NCBI GenBank assembly: GCA_009993605.1
Contig: JAACTB010000007.1
Location: 434,001 to 498,000, forward strand
Source: Erythrobacter sp.
GTDB taxonomy: Bacteria > Pseudomonadota > Alphaproteobacteria > Sphingomonadales > Sphingomonadaceae
DNA: 64,000 nt
Direction: 5' to 3'
Shown here: piece after piece, positions 45,942 to 60,030 of the stretch
Layout of the letters: the number at the start of each line of letters is the position of its first letter
Position numbering within the stretch: position 1 is the stretch's first letter
Translations under genes and position numbers: made by a program
The notes under the pieces: generated by a model
The model's input: the letters and a program-made list of their open reading frames with translations, nothing else
The model's database searches: none
Told to the model about the DNA's origin: nothing

Positions 45942-46727
45942 ATGAAAGGTCCGATGAATACGATCCATCCCCTCGATCCCGCGACGCAGGTCGGATCTCC
46001 GGAAAGCGCCTTGGAGCGAAAGCTTTCCTATCATCTTCCCCTGACCTTCTCCGAGAAGGACGCTCTGCGTTGGCTCGAGCGGCGGGAGCGTAGCTATCCG
46101 GCAGGAACGGTGATCGTCGAAGAGGGCGATCCGTCGGACAATCTGTATATCATCGCATCGGGCTGGCTGCACGGTTCGACACGCCTCGAAGATGGCGGGC
46201 GGCAGATCCTCCGCTTCTATTTTCTCGGCGATATCACAGCGACGTTTTCGCTCGCCTGGGGGTATTGCGCCGCCACCTTGACCGCGGTGAGCGATTGCAC
46301 CTTGTTCGAAGTGCCTCGACACGCCCTCGGGCGAATCTTTCGCGATTATCCGCGCTTGTCGGCATTGTTGTATGCGGTCGGTTCCGCCGAACAGGTCGCG
46401 CTCTCCGACCGGCTCACATCGGTGGGCCGAACCGATGCGATAAAACGCGTCGGTACGCTGCTCCTTCAGATCCGCACGCAATTGCAGGTTGTCGACGGTC
46501 CTGCCGGATCGGTTTTCGAATTGCCGCTTACGCTGCAGGATCTGGGCGATGCGACGGGCCTCACCAAAACGCATGTCGGGCGTACGCTGAGGGCGCTGGA
46601 ACGCGACGGCCTGATCGAACGCGATGGCAAGATCATCCGGATCGTCGCGATCGATGCCTTGACCGAGCGGGTTCGCTTCAAGGACCGAGTGACCCATGTC
46701 GCGACCGACTGGTTTGCCGAGGGCTGA
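45942..46727 (+). CDS. Crp/Fnr-family transcriptional regulator
   Basis: 261-residue regulator. The cyclic-nucleotide-binding-like beta-roll includes YPAGTVIVEEGDPSDNLYIIASGW and FYFLGDI; the HTH_Crp domain at the C-terminus reads LTLQDLGDATGLTKTHVGRTLRALERDGLIERDG. The effector pocket is not recognisably cAMP-type and no Cys cluster for Fe-S is visible, so the ligand is unknown. It lies 184 bp upstream of the inositol cluster, which it could control (inference). Confidence 0.9.
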   Translation: MKGPMNTIHPLDPATQVGSPESALERKLSYHLPLTFSEKDALRWLERRERSYPAGTVIVEEGDPSDNLYIIASGWLHGSTRLEDGGRQILRFYFLGDITATFSLAWGYCAATLTAVSDCTLFEVPRHALGRIFRDYPRLSALLYAVGSAEQVALSDRLTSVGRTDAIKRVGTLLLQIRTQLQVVDGPAGSVFELPLTLQDLGDATGLTKTHVGRTLRALERDGLIERDGKIIRIVAIDALTERVRFKDRVTHVATDWFAEG

Positions 46728-46911: not shown

Positions 46912-48090
46912 ATGTCGGAAAAAGTAGGTGTCGCTATTGTAGGTTTGGGCGGCGCTGTCGCCACCACGGCGGTTGCCGGGATCGAGATGATCAAGGCCGG
47001 GTCGAACGATTTCTCCGGTCTCCCGCTGGCAGATCGCGACATCGCCGACATGACAGCCTATCGCGATCTCGAATTCGGAGGCTGGGATTTGGCCGATAGC
47101 GATCTCGGCACCTGCGCATTGAAGCACGGCGTTCTCAGCGAAAGCGAACTCGACAACGGGGCTGGTGCGCTTCGCGGCATGAAGGCCTGGCCCGCAGTCG
47201 GCAGCAAGGCGCATTGCGCCAATATCGACGGCAACAACCGCATGGCCGACGGGCATCGCGGTGCGGTTGCGCAGATCAAGAGCGACCTCGAAAGCTTCAA
47301 GCGCGACAGGGGACTCGACCGGGTTGTGGTCGTCAATCTCGCCTCGACCGAGAAGATGCCCGACGCCGATGCGCAGAGCCTGACCTCGCGCGAAGCGTTC
47401 GAGCGCGGTCTCGACGATGACGATACCGCGATAAGCCCCGCCATGCTGTATGCCTATGCGGCGATCGAGTCCGGGTCGCCCTACGCCAATTTCACCCCCT
47501 CGGTCGCCGCCGATGTCGCGCCGCTTGCCGAAATGGCGCGCGAAATGGGCGTTCCGATCGCTGGGAAGGACGGCAAGACCGGGCAGACGTTTCTGAAAAC
47601 CGTGATCGCCCCCGCGCTCAAGGAACGCGCGCTGCATGTCGATGGCTGGTTTTCGACCAACATCCTCGGCAATTCGGACGGGCTCGCGCTGGACGATCCG
47701 AAGTCGCTGGCTTCCAAGCTAGGCACCAAGGGCAGCGTGCTCGACGATATCCTCGGCTACAAGGTCGAGGATCACATCATCATGATCCATTATTATCGCC
47801 CGCGCGGCGACGACAAGGAAGCTTGGGACAATATCGATCTGACCGGTTTTCTCGGACAGAAGATGCAGCTGAAACTGAATTTCCTCTGCAAGGATTCGAT
47901 CCTCGCCGCCCCGCTCGCCATCGAAATCGCGCGCTGCCTCGATCTGGCGGCTCAGCGCGGCGATGGCGGTGTGCGCGAGGAATTGAGCCTGTTCTTCAAG
48001 CTGCCCCAGACCAATGGCACCGCGCCGGTTCACGGCTTCGCGCAGCAGCAGGCCATGCTCGACCGCTGGCTGGAAAACGGCGCGGGATGA
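46912..48090 (+). CDS. ino1: myo-Inositol-1-phosphate synthase
   Basis: Converts glucose 6-phosphate to 1L-myo-inositol 1-phosphate, using NAD. 392 residues, with Rossmann motif AIVGLGGAVATTAVAG at the N-terminus, the VVVNLASTEK segment, GKDGKTGQTFLK active-site helix and NILGNSDGLALDDPKS. These mark the bacterial/archaeal MIPS type. ATG 46912 has GGAG nine bases upstream; an upstream frame to 46867 is rejected. First gene of the nine-gene cluster, feeding the inositol core (inference). Its stop overlaps the next gene (ATGA). Confidence 0.95.
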   Translation: MSEKVGVAIVGLGGAVATTAVAGIEMIKAGSNDFSGLPLADRDIADMTAYRDLEFGGWDLADSDLGTCALKHGVLSESELDNGAGALRGMKAWPAVGSKAHCANIDGNNRMADGHRGAVAQIKSDLESFKRDRGLDRVVVVNLASTEKMPDADAQSLTSREAFERGLDDDDTAISPAMLYAYAAIESGSPYANFTPSVAADVAPLAEMAREMGVPIAGKDGKTGQTFLKTVIAPALKERALHVDGWFSTNILGNSDGLALDDPKSLASKLGTKGSVLDDILGYKVEDHIIMIHYYRPRGDDKEAWDNIDLTGFLGQKMQLKLNFLCKDSILAAPLAIEIARCLDLAAQRGDGGVREELSLFFKLPQTNGTAPVHGFAQQQAMLDRWLENGAG

Positions 48091-48992
48091 GCGCGCTCGC
48101 GCCCGGCCTGCTCCCGCTCCTGCGCGAGCTCGGCGATCTGAAACGCATCCGCTCCGCCGGGCAGGATGGCACGATCGCGACGCGCCTGTTCGAAGCGGGC
48201 TGGCGCGCGTGGTTGGCGGGCGGCGAAGCGCAGGACATCGCGCTTCGCATCATGGCCCAGGCGCTCGCCGCGACGCGGCTGGGCGATCTCGACCATAAAA
48301 AGCTCGGCGAACTCGGGATCGAGGGGGCGGATCGCCTCACCGTCCTGAACCGCGCCATCGACGAGTTGGCGGACGAATTGGACGGCGATCTGGTCGCGCG
48401 TTTGAAGGCGCAGCTCGACAGTCCCGTGGCGTCTGGGCCGGACGACGGAGAACTGCCCGAAGCCATCGCCAGTCTGCGCCACCAGCCGCGCGCGGGCGTC
48501 ACCGGGCCGGGGCGCCCACGCATCATGCTGCAGCCGGAAGAAAATCACGCCGAACACAGCTTCGTCGTGGCGCTTTATGCCGGGCTCCTCGCCCCGTTCT
48601 ACCATGCCGATCCGGCGCGCGCCTTCTGGCACGGGATGATCCACCATCTGCATTCCGCCGCCATGCCCGATGCTGGCTATACGGGCGAAGTGCTGCTCGG
48701 CGACAAGCTCGACGCGGTAATCGAACGGACGCGCGCGCTGGCGCTCGATCAGCTGCCCCAAGCGCAGGCGGATGTCTGCCGCGATCACCTGAGCGCCATC
48801 GCCGACGATGCGACGCCGAGCGCGCGGGCCTTTCATGCCGCCGATGTCATCGACCGCGTTATCGAGATCGAACAGCACCTGAAACGCTCAGCCGTAACCA
48901 TGACCGTCGTGCTCGACGATTACGGCCTGGTGCATGACGGGCCGGTCAAAGCGTTCCACGATACGGTCCTCACCGAAATCGGCCTGCCCTGA
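48087..48992 (+). CDS. HD-like hydrolase of the inositol cluster
   Basis: 301-residue cytoplasmic protein. N-terminal 100 residues are helical with no motif. The middle has ENHAEHSFVVALYAGLL and FWHGMIHHLHSAAMPDAGYTGEVLLGD, resembling the HD-domain phosphohydrolase fold, though the canonical His-Asp pair reads HH. A distal Asp lies in HAADVIDRVIEIEQH. I infer a metal-dependent phosphohydrolase, possibly dephosphorylating an inositol phosphate. Its ATG overlaps ino1, two bases separate it from the methyltransferase. Unsure of exact family. Confidence 0.75.
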   Translation: MSALAPGLLPLLRELGDLKRIRSAGQDGTIATRLFEAGWRAWLAGGEAQDIALRIMAQALAATRLGDLDHKKLGELGIEGADRLTVLNRAIDELADELDGDLVARLKAQLDSPVASGPDDGELPEAIASLRHQPRAGVTGPGRPRIMLQPEENHAEHSFVVALYAGLLAPFYHADPARAFWHGMIHHLHSAAMPDAGYTGEVLLGDKLDAVIERTRALALDQLPQAQADVCRDHLSAIADDATPSARAFHAADVIDRVIEIEQHLKRSAVTMTVVLDDYGLVHDGPVKAFHDTVLTEIGLP

Positions 48993-48994
48993 GC

Positions 48995-50101
48995 GTGGAG
49001 CAGCGCTGGCATTCTCCCCTGACCGGACGCGCGCTCCACCACGACACCGCGCATTCGCTGACCGACGGCCAGTTCGAGCGCTGGCCGGTCGTCGAGGGCA
49101 TTCCCTATCTGCGCACCGAGAGCGAGGGGCTAGTCGCTTTGGCGCTCGATCGGCTCGATGCGGGCGATGTGGATGGGGCGCTGGTGGCGCTGCTGACCGA
49201 TCAGGATGCGTGGTGGACCGGACCTGCCACCGATCTCGACGAACTGCGCGACCTGGTGCGGCGACGCGACGAACTCACTCTGCGCGAAGCGATGGCGCTG
49301 ATGCGCTTCGGCCCGGTCGCGGACTATTTCGCTCATCGCTGGAGCGATCCGACCTATCTTGCCGGGCTCGCTCTGCTCGAAGCGCATTGGACCGCTCCCG
49401 AAACTGCCTTCGAGCTCGCCGGCGGCATCGGCCATTTCGCGCGTGCGTTGGGCGAGCGCGGTGTCGCCTGCGTCAGCGCAGACATCGTCTTTTCCAAATG
49501 CTGGCTCGCCAAGAACTGGGTCGCGCCCGACGCCGATTATGTCGTGTTCGACGCGAAAGACAGTTGGCCTTTGGGCGAGCGACAATTCGATCTCGTCCAC
49601 TGCGAGGACGCGTTCTATTTTCTGCCCGACCAGGACAAGGTCGCAAGGCGGTTGCGCGAGGCGACGGCCTCAGGCGGCGTGCTGGCGGTCGGTCACTTGC
49701 ACAACAGCGAGGTCGCGGGCGGAGCGATGGGCCCTGCCCGGACCGCCGCGGAATGGAACGACCTGTTCCCCGACGCACGAGTCTTCGACGAACGCGAATT
49801 GCGCGCCGCCTTGATGGAGGCGCGTGCGCCTCAATCGACGCACTGGGGAACGAATGAGGCGATCGAGGCCTGGAGCGTGGTCGAAGGCGGCCCCCAGCCG
49901 CGCGCCCTTGAGGGCGGGCTTGCCCTCCCCTCCTCCGACGCAGACCTGCGCCCCAATCCGCTGATCGGTGAGGCGGAGCCGCTCTGGCCGTCCGAGCGTT
50001 ATGTAACCGAGTACGGCGCCGCCGCGACCTGGACGGATGGCGGCGCGGCCGAAGACCCGGCGCGCGATCGCCGCCGGGTCGATCTACCGGAACGGTGGTG
50101 A
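48995..50101 (+). CDS. SAM-dependent methyltransferase of the inositol cluster
   Basis: 368-residue class I methyltransferase. The first 75 residues (QRWHSPLTGRALHHD, then FERWPVVEGIPYLR) look like a degenerate Trm112-type lead domain lacking zinc Cys. The SAM loop is FELAGGIGHFARAL at about residue 130, acidic strand-two VSADIVFSK, then VVFDAKDSWPLG and the motif IV area FDLVHCEDAFYFLPD. GTG 48995 starts two bases after the HD gene. Likely methylates an O or N on the cluster product. Confidence 0.85.
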   Translation: MEQRWHSPLTGRALHHDTAHSLTDGQFERWPVVEGIPYLRTESEGLVALALDRLDAGDVDGALVALLTDQDAWWTGPATDLDELRDLVRRRDELTLREAMALMRFGPVADYFAHRWSDPTYLAGLALLEAHWTAPETAFELAGGIGHFARALGERGVACVSADIVFSKCWLAKNWVAPDADYVVFDAKDSWPLGERQFDLVHCEDAFYFLPDQDKVARRLREATASGGVLAVGHLHNSEVAGGAMGPARTAAEWNDLFPDARVFDERELRAALMEARAPQSTHWGTNEAIEAWSVVEGGPQPRALEGGLALPSSDADLRPNPLIGEAEPLWPSERYVTEYGAAATWTDGGAAEDPARDRRRVDLPERW

Positions 50102-50121
50102 GGATGACGGACGGAGAAGGC

Positions 50122-51114
50122 ATGCGCTGGGGCATTATCGGTTATGGCTGGGTCGCGCGCGATTACATGGCGCTGGGCATTCGCGCTGCGGGCGGCAGCG
50201 TCTCGGCGGTCTGCGATCCTTCGCCCGACGCGCGTGAGCAAGCACAGGCGGACGGCGCGCGGGTCTATGACAGCGTTGCCGCCATGCTCGCAGCCGGAGG
50301 GCTCGACGCGCTGTATGTGGCGACCCCCAATCATCTCCATGCCGAGGCGATCGAACAGGCCGCGGATGCGGGCCTCCCCATCCTGTGCGAAAAGCCTCTG
50401 GCCGAGAACGCCGGGGGGCTGGAGCGGATCGCCGCCGTCGCCGCTCGGGGCGACGTGCGCATGGGAACCGCGTTCGACCAGCGCCATCATCCCGCGCACG
50501 ACATCATCCGACGCCGGATCGCGGAAGGCGATCTCGGCGCGGTCACGGCGATCCGGATCGTCTATTGCTGCTGGGTCGATCCCGACTGGAGCCGAGGCAC
50601 GGGCGAAAACTGGCGCGCCAACCAGACTTGCGCCGGGGGCGGCGCGGTGCTGGACCTTGCGCCGCACGGGCTCGATCTCGCGCAATTCCTCACCGGCGAA
50701 CCGGTCGAACACCTCGCCATGGTGCTCCAACGCCGCATCCACGATTATCCGGTCGAAGATGGCGGAATGACCACCGGGCGCACGGCGTCGGGCGTGCTGT
50801 TCTCCAGCCACACCTCCTATAATTGGCCCGAGAATCTGCCGCGCCGCCGCCTGGAGATCGCGGGGACGAAGGCCATGATCGTCGCCAGCGACACGATGGG
50901 ACAGGATGCGGGCGGCCATATGACCCGGATCGACGCATCGGATGGATCGAGCGAGACACTCGGTTTCGACACTGGGACTACGCCTTTTGCGCGTCAGGCA
51001 GAAGCTTTCGCCCGCTTCGCGAGGGGCGAGGATTGCGGTTTCGACATCGCGCGCGACATCGCGGCAGCGCGCGCCTTCTTTGCTGCTTTCGAAGGAGCGG
51101 GCCGATGCCTCTGA
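50122..51114 (+). CDS. Gfo/Idh/MocA-family oxidoreductase
   Basis: 330-residue NAD(P)-dependent sugar/inositol oxidoreductase. Rossmann motif WGIIGYGWVARDYM, then YVATPNHLHAE and the catalytic-Lys motif LCEKPLAEN; AVLDLAPHGLDLAQFL contributes the active-site His. Members include myo-inositol 2-dehydrogenase, so it may oxidise the inositol or hexose ring. ATG 50122 has GGAG five bases upstream; ATG 50104 is an alternative. Its last 10 bases overlap the MBL gene. Confidence 0.9.
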   Translation: MRWGIIGYGWVARDYMALGIRAAGGSVSAVCDPSPDAREQAQADGARVYDSVAAMLAAGGLDALYVATPNHLHAEAIEQAADAGLPILCEKPLAENAGGLERIAAVAARGDVRMGTAFDQRHHPAHDIIRRRIAEGDLGAVTAIRIVYCCWVDPDWSRGTGENWRANQTCAGGGAVLDLAPHGLDLAQFLTGEPVEHLAMVLQRRIHDYPVEDGGMTTGRTASGVLFSSHTSYNWPENLPRRRLEIAGTKAMIVASDTMGQDAGGHMTRIDASDGSSETLGFDTGTTPFARQAEAFARFARGEDCGFDIARDIAAARAFFAAFEGAGRCL

Positions 51115-51929
51115 GCCATTTTGCCTGCGCCAATTGTGGTTTCTGGCAGCAGCATTTCGCGCCGCCCGATTGCCCGGTCTGCTCCGACGTGCGCAACGAT
51201 CTGCCGGAGGACGGCTGGCATTTCCTGTCCGAAGACGACGTCGCCCGGACACATTATGGCGATTTCCGCCAGATCGCGGACGACCTTTGGGCCTTTACCA
51301 CCAGCCCGCATCTGGGCCTTGGCGGAACCGGCTGGTTGATCGTGCGCCCGGTCGCGGAAGGCGGCAATATCGCCTTCGAAGCCGCGCCTTATTATTCGCA
51401 AGCCATGCTGGACAAGATCGCCGACCTTGGCGGTATCGCATCGCTCGCGGCCAGCCATCCGCATGGCTATGGTGCCCTGTTCCAGTTGCAGCGCGCTTTC
51501 GACCCCGATGTAGTGGCGATCCAGAAGGACGATCTCGCCTACACCAAGGCATTCCGCGTCACCGCGCCCTATGACGACACGCTGGAACTGGCGCCCGGCT
51601 ACACGCTCCATCATGTCGGCGGCCATTATGCCGGGCAGGCCGCGCTGCACGATACGAAAGCCAAGCGGTTTTTCTGCGGCGACATGTTCAAGATCGACCA
51701 AGACGCGGACGGCCGCTCGACGCACATTTCGAGCCACAAGGCCTTTCACAAGGATATCCCGCTCACCCATGGCGAGGTGCAGGCCTATCGCGACGTGATC
51801 GCGCCACTCGCTTTCGATGCGGTGCTGACGCCTTTCGAATACGCCCCCGAAATCGGGCGGGATCGCGCGCTGGAGGTGCTGGACGAGGCGCTGGCGCGCC
51901 CGCCGCAAGTCAGGAGAGTTCCCGTATGA
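51105..51929 (+). CDS. Zinc-ribbon MBL-fold protein
   Basis: 274-residue metallo-beta-lactamase-like protein. An N-terminal zinc ribbon of two Cys pairs (CANC, CPVC, residues about 7-24) precedes the MBL domain. The first metal motif reads SHPHGYGALF, where the HxH of HxHxDH is present but the Asp-His pair is not; later motifs are HHVGGHYAGQ and FFCGDMFKID. Thus it keeps three His and one Asp but not the full di-metal set, suggesting one metal or an altered activity. SD GGAG lies eight bases before ATG 51105. Stop overlaps YcaO (ATGA). Confidence 0.85.
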   Translation: MPLSHFACANCGFWQQHFAPPDCPVCSDVRNDLPEDGWHFLSEDDVARTHYGDFRQIADDLWAFTTSPHLGLGGTGWLIVRPVAEGGNIAFEAAPYYSQAMLDKIADLGGIASLAASHPHGYGALFQLQRAFDPDVVAIQKDDLAYTKAFRVTAPYDDTLELAPGYTLHHVGGHYAGQAALHDTKAKRFFCGDMFKIDQDADGRSTHISSHKAFHKDIPLTHGEVQAYRDVIAPLAFDAVLTPFEYAPEIGRDRALEVLDEALARPPQVRRVPV

Positions 51930-53413
51930 ACCGCACCGGCCTTCCCGCCGATCTGCCGGACGCCGCGCGCGCCTATCTCGACGCCTTTCCCAAGGGCGAC
52001 ATCGTGGCCTTTCCGATCGATCCGATCGACAGGGTCGGCATTCCGGTCTGGATCGTTGCTTTGTTCCCCGAAGACCAGCCCCGTCTCGACGGCGTGATGC
52101 CCTACGGCGTCGGCTATGGACGGGACGAGGGGCAGGCGATCTTGGGCGCCATGGGCGAAATTGCCGAGATGGCTTTCCCCGCCCTTTCTCTCGGCGCGCG
52201 CGAAAAGACGCGCGGGTCCTACGCCGATCTGGTCGCCAATCTGGGTACGAGCAGCGTCGCCGATCCGCTGACGCTGTGCCTTCCAGCAGGCTCCCCAGTC
52301 GGGCGCGACAGCGTGCTTGAATGGGTCGAGGCAGTGCGCCACGCGGATGGGTCCAGCGTGCTCGTGCCGATCGATCTCGCGGCCTACAATTCGGCGGAAT
52401 TGTCGGACGGGTACAGGCCCTTCACCACCATCATTTCGAACGGCATGGGCGCCGGGCCCGATCGTGACTGGGCGGTGGGCCATGGCCTTTGCGAGATTTT
52501 GCAGCGCGACGGTAACGGCCTGCTGTTCCGCGCGCTTGATCAGGGCGTGGCTATCGAGCTGCCCGACGATCTTCCGCCCGGCGCGGCAGAGCTGATGGCG
52601 AAGTACGAGGCTGCTGGTATCCGCCCGATCCCCAAATTCGCGACCGACGAATTCGGTATCTGCAATCTCTATTGCGTGGGCGTGGACGAGCGCGGCGCTC
52701 CGGCCGAACCGATCATGGTCTCCGCCTGCGGCGAGGCTGCCCATCCCGACCGCGAGGCCGCGCTGGAAAAGGCGTTGACCGAATATGCCGCCAGCCGCAG
52801 CCGGAAGGCCTATGCCCATGGCGACGATGCGCGCACCCGCGCGCTAAGCCCGCGAAATTATGTCGATCGCTTCCTCGCCCAGAGCGGCGGCGCGGCGAAA
52901 TCGTCGGACCGGCGCGCGCTCGATGGGATGATCGACTGGCAATCGCGCGAGGCGAGCGAAATCCGCTCATGGCTCGGCGACAACATGCTGAGCGAAAAAA
53001 CGGTGAAACGCTTCGCCGACCTGCCGCACACGCCGTGTGAGGGGCCGCGCGATCGCGGGCGCATTGCGCTGGAGCGCGTCGCGGATGCCGGCTTCGACAC
53101 ACTCTATGTCGACATGACACCCGACGGCTGCCCGGTCGCGACCGTGAAGCTGATCGTCCCGGGAATGGAAGTCGAGACGATGAGCTATAACCGGATCGGC
53201 GAACGCGGCGTCGCCAAACTGCTGGCGATGGACAGCGAACTTATCGGCTTCGAACCGGGAGCAGGCCGCGAACCCGTTCGCCTGACGCCCGAGGCGATGG
53301 AGCGGTTCGGCGGGCAGCCCTTTTTCGACACGCGACGCGCCGCCGAGATCGTCGGTCCGCTCTATCCCCTCTATCGCGAGCCCGAGGCGCATCATGCGGC
53401 GGCCGCACAATGA
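51926..53413 (+). CDS. YcaO-family ATP-dependent enzyme
   Basis: 495-residue protein with a C-terminal-half YcaO architecture. ATP/Mg motifs: YGVGYGRDEGQAILGAMGEIAE (Glu78, Glu81) and SNGMGAGPDRDWAVGHGLCEILQRDGN at about residues 171-197, where the usual second Glu of the GLxEvxERD helix appears as Gln193. The C-terminus has the family strand YVDMTPDGCPVATVKLIVPGMEVE (residues about 400-425 region). YcaO enzymes activate amide backbones with ATP to form azolines or thioamides. There is no TfuA, E1-like protein, or precursor peptide here. Overlaps MBL and TIM-barrel genes by 4 bp. Confidence 0.9.
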   Translation: MNRTGLPADLPDAARAYLDAFPKGDIVAFPIDPIDRVGIPVWIVALFPEDQPRLDGVMPYGVGYGRDEGQAILGAMGEIAEMAFPALSLGAREKTRGSYADLVANLGTSSVADPLTLCLPAGSPVGRDSVLEWVEAVRHADGSSVLVPIDLAAYNSAELSDGYRPFTTIISNGMGAGPDRDWAVGHGLCEILQRDGNGLLFRALDQGVAIELPDDLPPGAAELMAKYEAAGIRPIPKFATDEFGICNLYCVGVDERGAPAEPIMVSACGEAAHPDREAALEKALTEYAASRSRKAYAHGDDARTRALSPRNYVDRFLAQSGGAAKSSDRRALDGMIDWQSREASEIRSWLGDNMLSEKTVKRFADLPHTPCEGPRDRGRIALERVADAGFDTLYVDMTPDGCPVATVKLIVPGMEVETMSYNRIGERGVAKLLAMDSELIGFEPGAGREPVRLTPEAMERFGGQPFFDTRRAAEIVGPLYPLYREPEAHHAAAAQ

Positions 53414-54255
53414 GCCTTCGCTACGCCTACAACACCAACGGCACCGCCAACCACCGGTTGGATGATGCGCTGCGGCTGATCGCGGATAGTGGCTATCAGG
53501 GCGCGGCCATTACGCTCGACCATCATCACTGCGATCCCTTCGCGTCCGACTGGCGCGGGGAAGCGGAGCGGATCGGGCGTCTTCTCGACGATCTCGGTCT
53601 CGGCGCGATCGTCGAAACCGGCGCGCGGTTCCTGCTGGACCCGCGCGCCAAGCACGAACCGACGCTGCTCTCTCCGCAAGCGGAAGGACGTGATCGCCGA
53701 GTCCAATTCCTCTCGCGCGCCATCGACATCGCCGCGATCTGGAACGCCGATGCGGTCAGCTTCTGGGCCGGCGTGCCCCGCCCCGGCGTCGAGGACCGCC
53801 AAGCGCTTAAATGGCTGCACGAAGGGCTGGAGCGCGTGCTCGACCATGCCGAGGCGAGCGGCGTCGATGCCGCCTTCGAACCCGAGCCCGGCATGCTGAT
53901 TGAGACCTGCGGCGAATGGGAAGCGTTGCACGCCGCCCACCCGCGTCTGAAGCTCGCGCTCGATACCGGGCACTGCATCGTCAGCCAGGACATCGACCCG
54001 GCGGACGCGGTTCGCCGTTACAAGGACCATCTCGGCACTGTCGCGATCGAAGACATGGCGACGGGCGTGCATGTCCACCTCCCCTTCGGAGAAGGCGACA
54101 TGGACGTACCTGGAATTCTCACCGCGCTAGACGAGATCGGGTTCGAACGGCTCGTCTCCGTCGAACTTTCGCGCGAAAGCCCGCGCGCGCATCAGGCGAT
54201 TCCAGAAAGCATCGCCTATCTGAAGGAGCACGCGCCACGAAGGACGAATGCATGA
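53410..54255 (+). CDS. Sugar-isomerase-like TIM barrel (xylose isomerase/IolE family)
   Basis: 281-residue AP endonuclease-2/xylose-isomerase-like TIM barrel. Metal ligands are visible as Glu in DAAFEPEPGM, Asp in LALDTGHCIV, the His pair in VHVHLPFGEGD and Glu in VSVELSRES. Related proteins isomerise or dehydrate keto-inositols and sugars. Next to a Gfo/Idh enzyme it could act on an inosose intermediate (inference). Starts at 53410, overlapping YcaO; overlaps GT4 by 4 bp. Confidence 0.88.
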   Translation: MSLRYAYNTNGTANHRLDDALRLIADSGYQGAAITLDHHHCDPFASDWRGEAERIGRLLDDLGLGAIVETGARFLLDPRAKHEPTLLSPQAEGRDRRVQFLSRAIDIAAIWNADAVSFWAGVPRPGVEDRQALKWLHEGLERVLDHAEASGVDAAFEPEPGMLIETCGEWEALHAAHPRLKLALDTGHCIVSQDIDPADAVRRYKDHLGTVAIEDMATGVHVHLPFGEGDMDVPGILTALDEIGFERLVSVELSRESPRAHQAIPESIAYLKEHAPRRTNA

Positions 54256-55475
54256 GAATCTGCTTCGTCAGCCGCCGCTTTTTCCCCGCGATTTCGGGCA
54301 TGTCGATCTATGCGATCAATCTGCTGCGCCAATTGGTCGCGCGCAGGCACGACGTGACGATGATCAGCCAGTATCGCGGCGACGAATTCGGCAAGGGCGT
54401 CTATGGCGGCGGTCCGCCGCCCGACGTGCCCGGCGTGACGGTAATCGGTCTCGAACAGAAGGGCGAACAGGAAGCCAATACCGGTTCGGCGAATTTCGAA
54501 CGCGATATCGCCACCATGGTCGAGACGATCTGCGCCGAACATTCGGCCAATCCATTCGACGTGCTGCACGCACAATACGGCTATCCTACCGGCTGGGCGA
54601 CGCTGATCGCGGGGCAGCGCCTGGGGCTTCCAGTCGTCGTCTCGATCCAGGGGGGCGACGGGCATTGGGTCGGCAGTTGCTGCGAAACGCACCGCCAGGC
54701 GATGCTGCGCGTGCTCAACCATGCGGATGCGGTTTTGATCGGCGGAGAAGGCTTCGCGCGCGAAGTGTATGAGCGGCTGGGAACGCCGATGGAGCGCTTC
54801 ACCTACGTCCCCGGTGCCGTCGATACCGAACGCTTCGCTCCCTCGGACACCGCACCCGGAGGACCGGTGCGCATCCTCTATCACGGGCGCGTCGATCGCC
54901 GGAAAGGCGTGCTCGACTTCATCGCGGCCTGCGCGAAATTGAAAGGCGATTGGAGCGCGACCATTTCGGGTATCGGGCCTGACCTTCAGGCGGCGAAAGA
55001 TCTTGTGGCCGAACACGCGCTTCAAGATCGCATCGCATTCGGGGGCTATGCGGACTATTCCGACGTCCCGGACATCTACCGCGCACACGATCTCTTCGCC
55101 TCGCCGACATATGCGGAAGGGTTTTCCAACACCATCCTCGAAGCGATGGCATCGGGTCTCGCCATTATGTCCTGCCATGCGGTGGGCGTGTCCGATTGCC
55201 TGCGCCATGACGAGAACGGATTGCTGAGCGAACCCGGCGATGTCGCCATGCAGGCCGCGCATCTCCAGCGCCTGATCGACGATCCGGCAGAGCGCGCCAG
55301 GCTCGCCGACAACGCGCTCGAGGAATGCCGCCGAACCTATAGCTGGGATGTCGTGGGCGGGATGATCGCGGATATCTACGCACAGGTTCGCGGCAGCGGT
55401 GCGCCGTCCCCCTTCGATCCCGAGCTTCCGCACGACCCCGATTGCCGCTTTCGCGCGCAGCCGCATCTGTTGTGA
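54252..55475 (+). CDS. GT4 glycosyltransferase (MshA-like context)
   Basis: 407-residue GT-B retaining glycosyltransferase. N-domain starts ICFVSRRFFPAISGMSIYAINLLRQL with the donor-side GxSxY loop; YHGRVDRRKGVLDFI begins the C-domain; the EX7E catalytic motif is AEGFSNTILEAMASG at about residue 300. MshA of mycothiol synthesis is the same family and uses inositol phosphate as acceptor; an ino1 gene in the operon makes this attractive. Donor and acceptor are not proven. The stop overlaps the deacetylase start (GTGA). Confidence 0.9.
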   Translation: MRICFVSRRFFPAISGMSIYAINLLRQLVARRHDVTMISQYRGDEFGKGVYGGGPPPDVPGVTVIGLEQKGEQEANTGSANFERDIATMVETICAEHSANPFDVLHAQYGYPTGWATLIAGQRLGLPVVVSIQGGDGHWVGSCCETHRQAMLRVLNHADAVLIGGEGFAREVYERLGTPMERFTYVPGAVDTERFAPSDTAPGGPVRILYHGRVDRRKGVLDFIAACAKLKGDWSATISGIGPDLQAAKDLVAEHALQDRIAFGGYADYSDVPDIYRAHDLFASPTYAEGFSNTILEAMASGLAIMSCHAVGVSDCLRHDENGLLSEPGDVAMQAAHLQRLIDDPAERARLADNALEECRRTYSWDVVGGMIADIYAQVRGSGAPSPFDPELPHDPDCRFRAQPHLL

Positions 55476-56173
55476 ATCGCGTCCTCGCCATATCGCCGCA
55501 TCTCGACGATGCGGTGTTCTCGGCAGGCGGCACGCTCGCGCGCCATGCGATCGACGGGGACGAGGTTACGATCCTCACCTGCTTTACCGGCAACGTCGCG
55601 AATCCCCAGGGTTTCGCACTCGCTTGCCAGCTCGACAAGGGCCTGTCCGCCGAGATCGACTACATGGCGCTGCGCCGTGCGGAGGATTTGGCGGCGTGCG
55701 AGGCCATCGGTGCAAAGGCCCACCATCTGCCGTTTCTCGAAGCGCCCCATCGCGGATACGCGGATGCCAAATCGCTGTTCGCCGAACGCAAAGAAACTGA
55801 CGCGCCGATCGTCGCCGATCTCCGCGCGGCGATTGCCTCGCTCTACGACAAACTTCGTCCGTCGATCGTTTACGGTCCGCTCTGCGTCGGCGATCATGTC
55901 GATCATCATGTGGTTAGAGATGCCATGGCCGAGCAGTCCGCAGGAGTGCCGGTCGTGTGGTGGGAGGATTTCCCATATGCGATGAAGAGCGAGGCGGTGT
56001 CCGAGGGCGTCGTAAGGAGGCCCCTGGATGCCCCAAGCGCGGCTGCGAAATTGCGCAGCGTGCTATGCTATAAGAGCCAGCTCGGCTTCCAGTTCGGCTC
56101 CGCCGAGCGCGCGGCGGATATTCTTTCGCAATGGACGATGGAAGGTTTTGTCGGCGGCGACCTGGCCACCTAA
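55472..56173 (+). CDS. PIG-L/LmbE-family deacetylase
   Basis: 233-residue zinc de-N-acetylase of the MshB/PIG-L type. Zinc and catalytic residues: ISPHLDDAVFSAGG (His, Asp, Asp) at about residue 9 and GDHVDHHVVRDA (His) at about 142. It probably removes an N-acetyl group from a GlcNAc-type sugar attached by the GT4 protein, exposing an amine. GTG 55472 overlaps the GT4 stop. Last gene of the cluster; a decayed esterase remnant follows. Confidence 0.92.
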   Translation: MNRVLAISPHLDDAVFSAGGTLARHAIDGDEVTILTCFTGNVANPQGFALACQLDKGLSAEIDYMALRRAEDLAACEAIGAKAHHLPFLEAPHRGYADAKSLFAERKETDAPIVADLRAAIASLYDKLRPSIVYGPLCVGDHVDHHVVRDAMAEQSAGVPVVWWEDFPYAMKSEAVSEGVVRRPLDAPSAAAKLRSVLCYKSQLGFQFGSAERAADILSQWTMEGFVGGDLAT

Positions 56174-56510: not shown

Positions 56511-56651
56511 GAATTGCCGATCGGTAAACGCCGTTCCGCTCCGCCGGAGCGAAAGAGGTGCTTTTGCAGGAGCATCGATTGCTGGTCTGTTTTGAGCCTC
56601 GATGAAACCAACTTTACGCTGGAACGCTGACTCCCCTGATTGGAGAGACTT

Positions 56652-57503
56652 ATGGCCGCACGTGCATATTGGCAGGGGCAGATCAGGCTGGCGCTGGTTT
56701 CGATCCCGGTGGAAATCTACACCGCGACCAAATCGGGTGCGAAGATCAGCTTCAACCAGATCCACGAGCCCAGCGGTAAGCGAGTGAAATACGAAAAGGT
56801 CGTGCCGGGCATCGGTCCGATCGATACCGACGAGATCATCAAGGGCTACGAGGTATCCAAGGGCGAATACGTCCTGCTGGAGGACGAGGAGATCGAGGCG
56901 GTCAAGATCGAGAGCCGCAAGACGCTCGAACTGGTCCAGTTCGTCGATCAGGGCGAGATCGACCCGCTCTATTTCGAGAAACCCTATTACGTCGCACCCA
57001 AGGACGATCTGGCGGAAGAAGCCTTCGTCGTGCTGCGCGAAGCTTTGCGCAAAGCGAAGAAGGTAGCGCTAGGCCAGCTTTCGGTTCGCGGGTCGGAAAA
57101 GCTCGTAGCGATCAAGCCGTGTGGCAAGGGATTGCTGCTGGAAACGCTGCGCTATGCCGACGAGGTGCGCGCCGGCCAGAGCTTCTTCGACGATATCGAC
57201 GAGGCGAAGCCGAAGAAGGAGTTGCTCGACCTTGCAACCACGCTGATCGACCAGCGCAGCGCGCCGTTCGATGCGGGCGAATTCGAGGATCGCTATGTCG
57301 ATGCCCTGCGCAAGCTGATCGACAAGAAGGCGAAGTCGAAAAGCGGCAAGGCGATCATCGAGGACGCCGATGGCGATGCGGGCGCGAGCGGCGACAATGT
57401 GATCGACCTGATGGCGGCGCTGAAACAGTCGGTCGACGGCAAGAAGAAACCGTCCGGCTCCTCGCCGGGCAAGTCGGCGGGCAAGCGCAAGAAGAGCGCC
57501 TGA
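56652..57503 (+). CDS. ku: Ku protein (non-homologous end joining)
   Basis: 283-residue DNA-end-binding homodimer protein. Begins ARAYWQGQIRLALVSIPVEIY, has ISFNQIHEPSGKRVKYEKV and YVLLEDEEIEAVKIESRKTLEL; the bridge region has YYVAPKDD and RKAKKVALGQ. The C-terminal tail is Lys-rich (KKKPSGSSPGKSAGKRKK), typical of bacterial Ku for LigD recruitment. SD GGAGAG precedes ATG 56652. One base separates it from ligD. Confidence 0.96.
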   Translation: MAARAYWQGQIRLALVSIPVEIYTATKSGAKISFNQIHEPSGKRVKYEKVVPGIGPIDTDEIIKGYEVSKGEYVLLEDEEIEAVKIESRKTLELVQFVDQGEIDPLYFEKPYYVAPKDDLAEEAFVVLREALRKAKKVALGQLSVRGSEKLVAIKPCGKGLLLETLRYADEVRAGQSFFDDIDEAKPKKELLDLATTLIDQRSAPFDAGEFEDRYVDALRKLIDKKAKSKSGKAIIEDADGDAGASGDNVIDLMAALKQSVDGKKKPSGSSPGKSAGKRKKSA

Positions 57504-57504
57504 A

Positions 57505-60030
57505 ATGGCGAGCGCGAAGAAGGCGTCCGACCCGCTCGCCCGCTACAATTCCAAGCGCGATTTCGAGAAAACGCCAGAGCCGTCGGGCAAGGCCGAAAGC
57601 AGCGCAACCGGCAACCTCTTCATCGTGCAGAAGCACGATGCCACCCGGCTGCACTGGGACCTGCGGCTGGAAGTGGATGGCGTGCTGAAAAGCTGGGCGG
57701 TGACGAAAGGTCCATCGCCCGATCCCGACATCAAGCGCCTGGCCGTTCGGACCGAGGATCATCCCATGTCCTATGCCGAATTCGAAGGCACCATTCCGAA
57801 GGGTGAATATGGCGGCGGCACGGTGATGCTGTGGGACCGCGGCAGCTGGGCGCCGATCGAGGGCAAAAGCGCCAAGGATCTCGATAAGGGCCACCTCCAT
57901 TTCACGCTTCAGGGCGAGCGGATGCGAGGCGAATGGCTGTTGATAAGGCTGAAGAAAAAGCCGGGAGAGAAGCGGGAAAACTGGCTTCTGCGAAAGTTGC
58001 AGGACGACCACACCGAAGAAGGCGACGCCCTGGTCGAGCGCGAGCTTACAAGCGTTCTGACGGGCCGCTCCATGGCTGAAATCGCGGCGGACAAGGCAGG
58101 CGAGTTCCCGCTGGCCGGCAAGAAGGACGATGCCTTTCTGGAACAGATGGAAAAGGCTGCGGCGCACAACGAGAAGGAGGCGAAGCCCCGAAAACGCAAG
58201 GACGCCCCGCTGCCCAAGTTCCGCACGCCGCAACTCGCCACACTGGTGGACGATGTTCCGACCGGCAATGGCTGGATGCACGAGATCAAATTCGACGGTT
58301 ACCGCGCGATGATCGCCGCCAAGGGAAGCGAGGTCCGCGTCTACACCCGCAGCGGCAAGGACTGGACCGACAAGTTCGGTCCGCTGAGAGACGCCGTGGC
58401 CGCGCTCGACCTGCCGGCCTGCCTGATCGATGGCGAGATCGTGGCCTACGATGCGAAGGGCAATCCCGATTTCTCGAGCCTGCAACAGGTGTTGAAGCGC
58501 GGGAACGGCAGCCAGTCCAAGGCGGATCGGCTGGCTCTCCATGCCTTCGACCTGATCGAGCTGAATGGCGAGGACCTCGCCAAGCTTTCGAATATCGAGC
58601 GCAAGGAGCGGCTGGAAGCACTGCTTTCCCATGCCGAACCACCCATCCATGTCGCCGATCACGTCATCGGCGCGGGTGAGAAGCTCTACGATGCGATGTG
58701 CCGCGCAGGACAGGAAGGCATCATCGCCAAACGGATCGACGCGCCGTATCGCCACGCGCGCAGCAAGGCGTGGGTCAAGGTCAAATGCACGCGGCGGCAG
58801 GAATTCGTCATCGTCGGCTGGAAGAAATCGAGCGCGAAAGGCAGGCCGTTCGCTTCGCTGCTGCTGGCGCAGAACGAAGGCGCCACGCTGGTCTACAAGG
58901 GCAATGTCGGGACCGGTTTCACCGCCGACGAGCTGGACGATCTCGCAGCCAAGATGAAGCGGCTGGAGCGCAAGACCCCGCCGGTCGAAACGGACAAGGC
59001 CAGCGCGCGCGGCGTGACCTGGTTGACGCCGAAACTGGTCGCGGAGATTGCCTTTGCCGAGTTCACCGCGGACGGCAATGTGCGCCACGGCAGCTATCTC
59101 GGCCTGCGCGGCGACAAGGACGCGTCGGATGTGAAGCCCGAAAAGGCCGCTTCCGCGCCCAGGACCGTCGCCGAGGTGAAAATTTCGAGCCGCGAGCGTG
59201 TCGTATTCCCCGATAGCGGACAAACCAAGGGCGAACTGGCCGACTATTACGAGGCGGTCGCGGGCATCATGCTGCCCTTCGCCGCCCGCCGCCCCGTCAG
59301 CCTGGTGCGTTGTCCGCAGGGACGGGCGAAAAACTGCTTCTTTCAGAAACACGATAGCGGCGGCTTTGGCGACGCGGTGCACCATGTGCCGATCCAGGAG
59401 AGGGACGGCGGCAGCGAGGATTACCTCTATGTCGAGGATGCGCGCGGTCTGCTGCAATGCGTGCAGATGGGCACGATCGAGTTCCATGGCTGGGCATCGC
59501 GCACGAACGACGTCGAGATGCCCGACCGGATGATCTTCGACCTCGACCCTGACGAGGGGCTGGATTTCGCCGACGTGAAGCAGGCGGCGCGCGATATCCG
59601 GGCGCGGCTGTCCGATATCGGCCTCGTCAGCTTCGCCATGCTGTCGGGAGGTAAGGGTGTGCATGTCGTCGTGCCGCTCACGCCGGGACACGATTGGAAC
59701 GCGCACAAGGATTTCGCCCGCCGCTTCGCCGAAGCGCTGTCGCTGGCCGAGCCCGGCCGCTTCACCGCCACGATGAGCAAGGCCAAGCGCAAGGGTAAGA
59801 TCTTTATCGATTGGCTACGCAACCAGCGCGGCAGCACGGCGGTGCTGCCCTATTCCGCCCGCGCCCGCAGCGGTGCGCCGGTGGCCGTGCCGATCGGCTG
59901 GAACGAGCTGAAGGACCTGGCGGACGCCAAACCCTACAGCATCGACGATGCCAAACGCCTGCTCACCCGCGCGAGCAGCAAGAGGCTGACCGGCTGGGGG
60001 TTTGCTGAGCAGGCTCTGCCGAATTTGTAA
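57505..60030 (+). CDS. ligD: Multifunctional DNA ligase LigD
   Basis: 841-residue end-joining enzyme in the order phosphoesterase, ligase, polymerase. The PE domain (about 20-175) has FIVQKHDATRLHWDLRLE; the ATP ligase domain has nucleophilic Lys in EIKFDGYRAM (about residue 262), LIDGEIVAYD and EGIIAKRIDAPY; OB-fold up to about 540; the primase-polymerase domain (about 565-841) has IFDLDPDEGLDF and LSGGKGVHVVVPL. All active-site motifs look intact. Co-transcribed with ku. Confidence 0.97.
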   Translation: MASAKKASDPLARYNSKRDFEKTPEPSGKAESSATGNLFIVQKHDATRLHWDLRLEVDGVLKSWAVTKGPSPDPDIKRLAVRTEDHPMSYAEFEGTIPKGEYGGGTVMLWDRGSWAPIEGKSAKDLDKGHLHFTLQGERMRGEWLLIRLKKKPGEKRENWLLRKLQDDHTEEGDALVERELTSVLTGRSMAEIAADKAGEFPLAGKKDDAFLEQMEKAAAHNEKEAKPRKRKDAPLPKFRTPQLATLVDDVPTGNGWMHEIKFDGYRAMIAAKGSEVRVYTRSGKDWTDKFGPLRDAVAALDLPACLIDGEIVAYDAKGNPDFSSLQQVLKRGNGSQSKADRLALHAFDLIELNGEDLAKLSNIERKERLEALLSHAEPPIHVADHVIGAGEKLYDAMCRAGQEGIIAKRIDAPYRHARSKAWVKVKCTRRQEFVIVGWKKSSAKGRPFASLLLAQNEGATLVYKGNVGTGFTADELDDLAAKMKRLERKTPPVETDKASARGVTWLTPKLVAEIAFAEFTADGNVRHGSYLGLRGDKDASDVKPEKAASAPRTVAEVKISSRERVVFPDSGQTKGELADYYEAVAGIMLPFAARRPVSLVRCPQGRAKNCFFQKHDSGGFGDAVHHVPIQERDGGSEDYLYVEDARGLLQCVQMGTIEFHGWASRTNDVEMPDRMIFDLDPDEGLDFADVKQAARDIRARLSDIGLVSFAMLSGGKGVHVVVPLTPGHDWNAHKDFARRFAEALSLAEPGRFTATMSKAKRKGKIFIDWLRNQRGSTAVLPYSARARSGAPVAVPIGWNELKDLADAKPYSIDDAKRLLTRASSKRLTGWGFAEQALPNL

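Follow-up and report, generated by a model that had tools for sequence, protein, structure and literature searches.

A stretch of 64,000 nucleotides from Erythrobacter sp. (contig JAACTB010000007.1; the whole stretch is called the window here, and positions are counted from its first letter) contains, at 46912-56173 on the plus strand, nine genes that overlap by 4-10 bp or are separated by gaps of 2 bp, which confirms the tightly packed, single-strand set that an earlier sequence-only reading had described. The first gene, ino1 (46912-48090), encodes a myo-inositol-phosphate synthase (MIPS) that matches both MIPS domains above the Pfam cut-off (PF07994 and PF01658; 188.5 and 113.7 bits) and has the inositol-3-phosphate synthase 7nwr as its best solved relative (255.6 bits). 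It overlaps by 4 bp a gene for an HD-fold protein (48087-48992) in which the HD doublet has become HH (H186-H187). This is followed after 2 bp by a gene for an S-adenosylmethionine-dependent methyltransferase (48995-50101; PF08241) and after a further 2 bp by one for a Gfo/Idh/MocA dehydrogenase (50104-51114; PF01408 and PF22725); read from an alternative in-frame start (50095 or 50098), the latter gene would overlap the methyltransferase gene by 7 or 4 bp. The fifth gene (51105-51929), which overlaps the Gfo/Idh gene by 10 bp, encodes a zinc-ribbon metallo-β-lactamase (MBL) fold protein with an N-terminal CxxC...CxxC rubredoxin-like ribbon. The last four genes each overlap their predecessor by 4 bp and encode a YcaO protein (51926-53413; PF02624, E 1e-50), a xylose-isomerase-like triosephosphate isomerase (TIM) barrel (53410-54255; PF01261), a GT4 glycosyltransferase (54252-55475; PF00534 and PF13579) and a PIG-L family amidohydrolase (55472-56173; PF02585; GTG start). 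Curated Pfam cut-offs were passed by eight of the nine proteins; the exception, the MBL protein, has a sub-threshold rubredoxin-like match only and was placed by alignments and by its predicted fold.

The nine genes form one conserved functional biosynthetic unit. When 84,980 species, represented by one genome each, were scanned with the window YcaO, 40 loci were recovered, 34 from Sphingomonadales and six from Streptomyces. These were combined with regions from a sample of 396 Actinomycetota genomes, four plasmid records and the window to give 51 long loci, a count that omits loci spanning only 2-4.5 kb (L042-L052 and L063-L068), four loci with YcaO only (L059-L062) and two loci fetched later (L080 and L081). 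Gene order and strand were identical in all 51 long loci, 45 of which contain all nine genes, an arrangement that is therefore far beyond chance. The earlier expectation that the genes would be co-conserved was thus borne out, as they are not scattered in relatives of the window, with the exception of the MBL gene, which lies elsewhere in Methylobacterium. The operon is not confined to Sphingomonadales; collinear copies were found in three phyla: in Sphingomonadales, Methylobacterium, Roseomonas, Streptomyces and Rubrobacter (including R. radiotolerans, RradSPS_2399, R. indicoceani and R. marinus) and, with eight genes, in Hymenobacter. The closest named relatives of the window copy are from Qipengyuania/Actirhodobacter atriluteus and Erythrobacter (YcaO identity 85-86%). 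Motifs kept across phyla include GKDGKTGQT in MIPS, PHLDD and HVDH in PIG-L, and E..E and E..QRD in YcaO. In group trees the alphaproteobacterial copies fall together, as do those of Rubrobacter, Streptomyces and Hymenobacter, with discordance within Sphingomonadales.

Among the six incomplete loci, contig ends truncate L010 and L021, the Rubrobacter-type copy L058 is truncated and has no methyltransferase gene, two Methylobacterium records (L069 and L070) lack the MBL gene, and the copy of Hymenobacter volaticus (Bacteroidota; L072, 10114-15664) lacks the methyltransferase gene. Absence of the methyltransferase from both L058 and L072 makes this enzyme look dispensable. In L072 the annotation splits the Gfo/Idh gene in two and has no entry for GT4, which matches over residues 1-312 of 407 only, so this copy may be damaged, misread or a sequencing artefact. 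The eight genes of this Hymenobacter plasmid nevertheless keep the usual order, and all nine are present on a Roseomonas plasmid.

Packing and upstream context are also shared among the Sphingomonadales copies, in which intergenic gaps are at most 100 bp, with medians of -1 to -10. A gene for a Crp/Fnr-type regulator, identified by Pfam, lies upstream of the window operon (45942-46727, plus strand). Of the 33 Sphingomonadales loci that include both operon ends, the window among them, 22 have a related gene upstream on the same strand according to tblastn, and 21 do when open reading frames are clustered. It is likely that this regulator controls the operon. Hymenobacter volaticus also has a Crp/Fnr gene upstream, ~2.6 kb from ino1. 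Downstream of the window operon, starting after 466 bp and on the same strand, are genes for Ku (56640-57503) and a three-domain LigD (57505-60030), a non-homologous end joining pair; Ku had no match in the fetched flanks of L002-L041, and these neighbours are therefore not part of the operon unit. Directly downstream of the PIG-L gene, on the same strand, two Rubrobacter loci have a gene of formamidopyrimidine-DNA glycosylase type (L053 5487-6284, typed by Pfam, and L056 5967-6773).

The distribution of the YcaO protein was estimated in even samples of genomes with a profile threshold of E <= 1e-30. Only the best candidates per genome were scored (six in Sphingomonadales, three in Actinomycetota, and three for YcaO and six for MBL in Pseudomonadota), so the prevalences of YcaO and MBL are lower bounds; they count the proteins, and the cluster itself was observed in fetched loci. 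YcaO profile matches were found in at least 4 of 246 Sphingomonadales, at least 10 of 396 Actinomycetota and at least 6 of 398 Pseudomonadota genomes. The surroundings of YcaO were seen in one of the four positive Sphingomonadales genomes, that of the window itself, while the ten positive Actinomycetota comprise seven with the cluster, one of them partial at a contig end, and three with YcaO alone. At the YcaO-only loci of these three genomes (L059-L062) a polysaccharide-deacetylase-like protein adjoins YcaO, and at L060 and L061 sugar ABC transporter genes also lie beside it, an indication of a second, sugar-linked YcaO context.

Five of the six positive Pseudomonadota belong to the single genus Methylobacterium, one of which (G676) shares 94.8% identity with a Methylobacterium bullatum record along 18.9 kb. 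YcaO is present in 77 of 79 Methylobacterium genomes, and the cluster surrounds it in all seven genomes or records of this genus that were inspected, namely five of the 79 (L064-L068, each a locus of 4.4 kb; L080 and L081 are longer versions of two of these) and the records L069 and L070. Most groups thus carry YcaO as an accessory gene, whereas in Methylobacterium it is close to core, and the same presumably holds for the operon. One single-contig Methylobacterium assembly (G1043:C1) lists YcaO twice with equal score near the contig ends (6354-7817 and 6754717-6756180), which is probably the overlap of an uncircularised contig. The operon occurs on plasmid records of Methylobacterium, Roseomonas and Hymenobacter, and the matches listed for Rubrobacter or Hymenobacter queries include YcaO relatives with 48-53% identity in Corallococcus, Salinibacter and Gemmatimonadetes. 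A PHROGs search with four window proteins and a scan of IMG/VR viral contigs with the YcaO alignment gave no match; there is therefore no sign of phage carriage in these collections.

The YcaO proteins of these clusters form a subfamily in which QRDGN replaces ERD and the motif PG(M/L)EVET.SY is present (conservation over 35 sequences). MJ1094 is the nearest of the four solved relatives found (97 bits), which also include LynD and TruD. The zinc-ribbon MBL is likely to be a dedicated partner of this subfamily, a proposal drawn from sequence comparison and based on natural fusions and on co-occurrence in genomes. An MBL domain of this type is fused N-terminally to YcaO in 23 of 23 YcaO relatives longer than 600 residues, two of which have the domain in part only (349 proteins, from the best 120 per list), with Salinibacter ruber among the fusions (91 member sequences). 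All five Methylobacterium genomes tested encode the MBL protein elsewhere (42-44% identity, E ~1e-90), with neighbours that vary. Among the 398 Pseudomonadota, a cluster-type MBL (E <= 1e-80) was found in exactly the six YcaO-positive genomes, unlinked to YcaO in five; eight others have distant MBL matches only (1e-31 to 1e-38) and 384 have none. Within the 79 Methylobacterium genomes, 76 contain both genes, one contains neither (G1082, with a distant MBL match only) and two contain one, including G1094, which is 70% complete and has YcaO only.

The predicted structure of the MBL protein has an MBL fold, with 2p97 as its best PDB match (E 2.8e-8). The model was built from a 35-sequence alignment and has a mean predicted local distance difference test score of 70.5 and a predicted template modelling score of 0.75, with residues 1-39 unreliable. 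This alignment omits L006 and L033, which have odd lengths from automatic start or frame choice; it and the 37-row alignment of the HD protein both include the window and omit the near-duplicates L012 and L013. Residues H118, H120, H174 and D193 are invariant in the 35 MBL sequences, and in place of an HxHxDH motif HxHGYG is found in nine of nine sequences shown, so that the DH pair is lost. With the metal and catalytic roles that we take these residues, and those of the HD protein, to have, the retention of one metal site together with the CxxC...CxxC ribbon would fit a mononuclear, possibly redox-linked enzyme. Such a protein would presumably take the place held by E1-like or TfuA proteins in other YcaO systems.

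The HD-fold protein passes the Pfam cut-off for HD_3, while all 37 aligned sequences have HH in place of HD, and the position of the nucleotidase catalytic Glu is Ser or Asn in the nine sequences shown in full. Foldseek placed it near YfbR, OxsA and HDDC2 (probability near 1) and ranked the HD oxygenases PhnZ and TmpB low (0.11-0.20), so that a role of the latter type is less likely. The best NCBIfam match of the Gfo/Idh protein is the inositol 2-dehydrogenase IolG, under cut-off, and its top PDB matches are 1,5-anhydrofructose reductases; judged from these relatives it is likely to oxidise a cyclitol or sugar. By family, the TIM barrel would be an isomerase or dehydratase of the sugar or cyclitol type. 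The C-terminal CRF...PHLL of GT4 is near-invariant in 27 sequences, its PDB relatives include BshA and MshA, and the PIG-L zinc motifs PHLDD and HVDH are kept in 26 sequences.

Together, these features lead us to favour, at somewhat better than even probability, a pathway for an intracellular, inositol-derived amino-sugar metabolite in which YcaO and MBL together activate a carbonyl of a small molecule at the expense of ATP. In this pathway Ino1 would convert glucose 6-phosphate to inositol phosphate, and the HD-fold protein might be the phosphatase for this intermediate or else an altered metallo-enzyme. Gfo/Idh would oxidise one ring carbon, and the TIM barrel would isomerise or dehydrate the resulting ketone. 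By analogy with MshA and MshB of the mycothiol pathway, GT4 could attach an N-acetylamino sugar from which PIG-L would free the amine. YcaO would then phosphorylate an amide or vinylogous carbonyl oxygen that is displaced by a nitrogen, sulfur or oxygen nucleophile, with MBL, through its mononuclear metal site and rubredoxin-like ribbon, supplying the nucleophile or a redox step; the methyltransferase would be an optional decoration. The suggestion in the sequence-only reading that Ino1, GT4 and PIG-L supply a glycosyl-inositol amine is plausible by family, and the product itself stays a proposal. That reading had also considered an antibiotic-like product, a view weakened by the near-universal carriage of YcaO in Methylobacterium and by the content of the operon. 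None of the nine genes belongs by Pfam to an exporter or resistance-type family, exporters encoded elsewhere not having been searched for, and since the operon lacks a precursor gene too, the product is more likely to be intracellular than to be an exported antibiotic.

Several observations weigh against this pathway. Its product and every catalytic step are inferred from enzyme family, and inositol as the substrate of Gfo/Idh and the TIM barrel is a guess, because neither protein reaches any equivalog cut-off. The HD protein is without canonical catalytic residues, its fold match comes from Pfam and moderate scores, and Foldseek gave no match to it at E <= 0.001. The three actinobacterial genomes that carry YcaO without the cluster are also without any HD gene, so that the YcaO subfamily can occur apart from the pathway. 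Methylobacterium clusters lack the MBL gene, and one genome of this genus (G1036) has MBL and no YcaO match. Finally, the co-occurrence of YcaO and MBL in Pseudomonadota does not amount to six independent events, because five of the six genomes are from one genus.

Among the alternatives, the one that survives best is that YcaO forms a thioamide, azoline or amidine in a protein or peptide, the precursor of which is encoded outside the operon, and that the carbohydrate enzymes glycosylate the product. To our knowledge, all characterised YcaO enzymes act on peptides or proteins, MJ1094 is the nearest solved relative, and the top NCBIfam scores of the window YcaO are to the SagD and McrA-thioamidation families. 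These scores are far under cut-off, however (TIGR03604, 92.3 of 219.25 bits; TIGR03266, 89.4 of 365 bits), no TfuA or E1-like partner was found by Pfam among the nine genes, and the carbohydrate-type and MBL neighbours are kept across phyla. Small open reading frames of 18-110 codons within 700 bp on each side of 33 Sphingomonadales loci were considered as precursors, but the widest of the eight largest families is found in 10 of the 33 loci and is antisense; nothing was conserved beyond small groups of related loci, a result that does not exclude a distant precursor. A peptide or protein substrate is thus considered unlikely.

A low-molecular-weight thiol, the other product suggested from the sequence alone, has fared less well and is given a slightly lower, decidedly small probability. 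GT4 and PIG-L would produce glucosaminyl-inositol, and YcaO and MBL would install sulfur as a thioamide, thiazoline or similar group. The MshA-like and MshB-like logic alongside Ino1 supports this idea, as does the nearest solved YcaO relative, which we take to be of the thioamide-forming kind; methylated thiols, moreover, exist in other systems. Against it, no sulfur-transfer family was found by Pfam among the nine genes, and among six genomes tested MshC is over cut-off only in Streptomyces (G246) and not in those of the window, Sphingomonas, Actirhodobacter, Rubrobacter or Methylobacterium. The best MshC score in the window's genome is 177.9 bits against a cut-off of 485.1, and all 14 control genomes also match this profile, one of them over cut-off. 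In addition, the window proteins are far under the mycothiol equivalogs for Ino1 (41.2 of 638 bits), MshA (62.6 of 462.5) and MshB (36.4 of 224.35); mycothiol itself is rejected on both grounds.

It is improbable to a similar or greater degree that the operon decorates a surface or exported glycan or glycolipid and does not make a free small molecule. In 11 Sphingomonas loci the operon is immediately followed by GT2-type genes (for example L014 14297-15223; one was typed by Pfam), which hints at further glycosylation of the product in those lineages, and an MdoH-like gene overlaps the Roseomonas operon (L071 16269-17831), but the GT2 genes are lineage-specific and the nine genes include no lipid carrier enzyme, polymerase or exporter. 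Least probable, and very doubtful, is a housekeeping inositol pathway for a lipid headgroup or osmolyte in which YcaO and MBL lie by chance: Ino1 is a genuine MIPS by profile and YcaO is near-universal in Methylobacterium, but outside this genus YcaO is very patchy, and the gene order that includes it is fixed across phyla.

A more specific lead is that the operon encodes a pathway for an inositol-built class of UV-A sunscreen, a counterpart of the mycosporines that would underlie the UVA-absorbing compounds of Methylobacterium and include the first YcaO demonstrated to act on a non-peptide small molecule; we regard this as a long shot. According to this proposal, Ino1, Gfo/Idh and the TIM barrel would form a cyclohexenone-type core, and YcaO-MBL would condense it with the amino sugar made by GT4 and PIG-L. 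Weak hints of a link with light or dryness come from four observations. Cluster carriers include Methylobacterium, Sphingomonas and Hymenobacter, and a close YcaO relative in Solirubrum is among the matches listed. The Hymenobacter carrier has an air source and other carrier genera live on leaves or in air, although soil and marine carriers exist too. Genes of the spore photoproduct lyase family flank the operon in Roseomonas (L071 17819-19940, two copies), Sphingomonas (L027 14262-15359, 59 bp from the operon) and Rubrobacter (L055 18366-19478, 2.5 kb from the operon), the latter two above the TIGR03886 cut-off. This amounts to 3 of 50 loci with flanks, where 0.1-0.3 would be expected among 518 flank proteins if genomes contain 1-2 such genes per 4,000, for a category chosen post hoc. 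The Ku and LigD neighbours of the window were counted as the fourth observation. Passages of several papers describe Methylobacterium UVA-absorbing compounds as avobenzone-like, with methylobamine as one that is named (PMC7769811, PMC7821382, PMC9664959), and these passages name no genes for them; portions of two others treat the same compounds (PMC12573535, PMC8561711). The link between methylobamine and the operon is a lead.

If the favoured pathway is correct, it is an unrecognised one scattered through three phyla, with a YcaO that nearly all Methylobacterium genomes encode, this genus being common on leaves. The scope of the YcaO family would be widened by a member that acts on a cyclitol glycoside together with a dedicated MBL-fold partner. 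The MBL-YcaO pairing defines a two-protein reaction that is open to assay, near-universal carriage in the genetically tractable Methylobacterium offers a direct route to discovery of the product, and the operon gives a specific set of candidate genes for the UVA-absorbing compounds described in this genus.

The pathway is real, conserved and apparently undescribed, its novelty being judged by elimination against the open-access literature, in which no description of the set was found, in agreement with the earlier view that it matches no pathway that can be named. The mycothiol, bacillithiol, ribosomally synthesised and post-translationally modified peptide (RiPP), McrA-thioamidation and mycosporine readings each fail on a defining feature that was tested. 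The YcaO fold and motifs are common to the window and to RiPP or thioamidation systems (LynD/TruD, TfuA pairs and the McrA YcaO), but here QRDGN stands for ERD, YcaO is fused to or paired with a rubredoxin-ribbon MBL, and no precursor, TfuA or E1-like protein was found in the cluster; for these reasons, and with no MshC over cut-off in five of six genomes, the set fits neither RiPP nor mycothiol pathways. With mycothiol synthesis it shares the inositol-phosphate synthase, GT4 and PIG-L families, which could make glucosaminyl-inositol, whereas YcaO, MBL, the TIM barrel, Gfo/Idh and the HD protein presumably have no counterpart there. For bacillithiol, scores are 83.2 of 273.7 bits to BshA and ~22 bits to BshB1 and BshB2 (cut-offs 182.5 and 195.25). 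The analogy to mycosporine-like amino acids lies in what we take to be a cyclitol-forming enzyme, a methyltransferase and ATP-dependent carbonyl activation with an amine, while Pfam places no dehydroquinate synthase-type cyclase, ATP-grasp or nonribosomal peptide synthetase-type enzyme among the nine. Inositol catabolism by IolG-IolE/IolI has the Gfo/Idh and xylose-isomerase-like TIM families in common with the operon, but both proteins are under the equivalog cut-offs and their setting here is with Ino1, which makes inositol.

A further comparison is with the ebo-type operon on a plasmid of Streptomyces sp. NBC_01768 (L073 9765-16991), which contains genes for Ino1, an SCO3242-family prenyltransferase, a TIM barrel, EboA, a TatD-type protein, EboE and EboF; no EboD-type cyclase is present in the annotated stretch. 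When the nine window proteins were compared with these ebo proteins by blastp, only the Ino1 pair (37% identity) and the TIM barrel pair (49%) were below E 0.01. Sections of published work describe ebo genes as required in Nostoc for scytonemin, a UV screen (PMC6282210), and propose that the ebo operon makes an isoprenoid-cyclitol (PMC5133447). The UbiA prenyltransferase (EboC), EboA, TatD-type EboB, EboE and EboF are not among the nine genes, which include instead the HD protein, methyltransferase, Gfo/Idh, MBL, YcaO, GT4 and PIG-L, but the Ino1-TIM pair is common to the two operons and a cyclitol logic is found in both.

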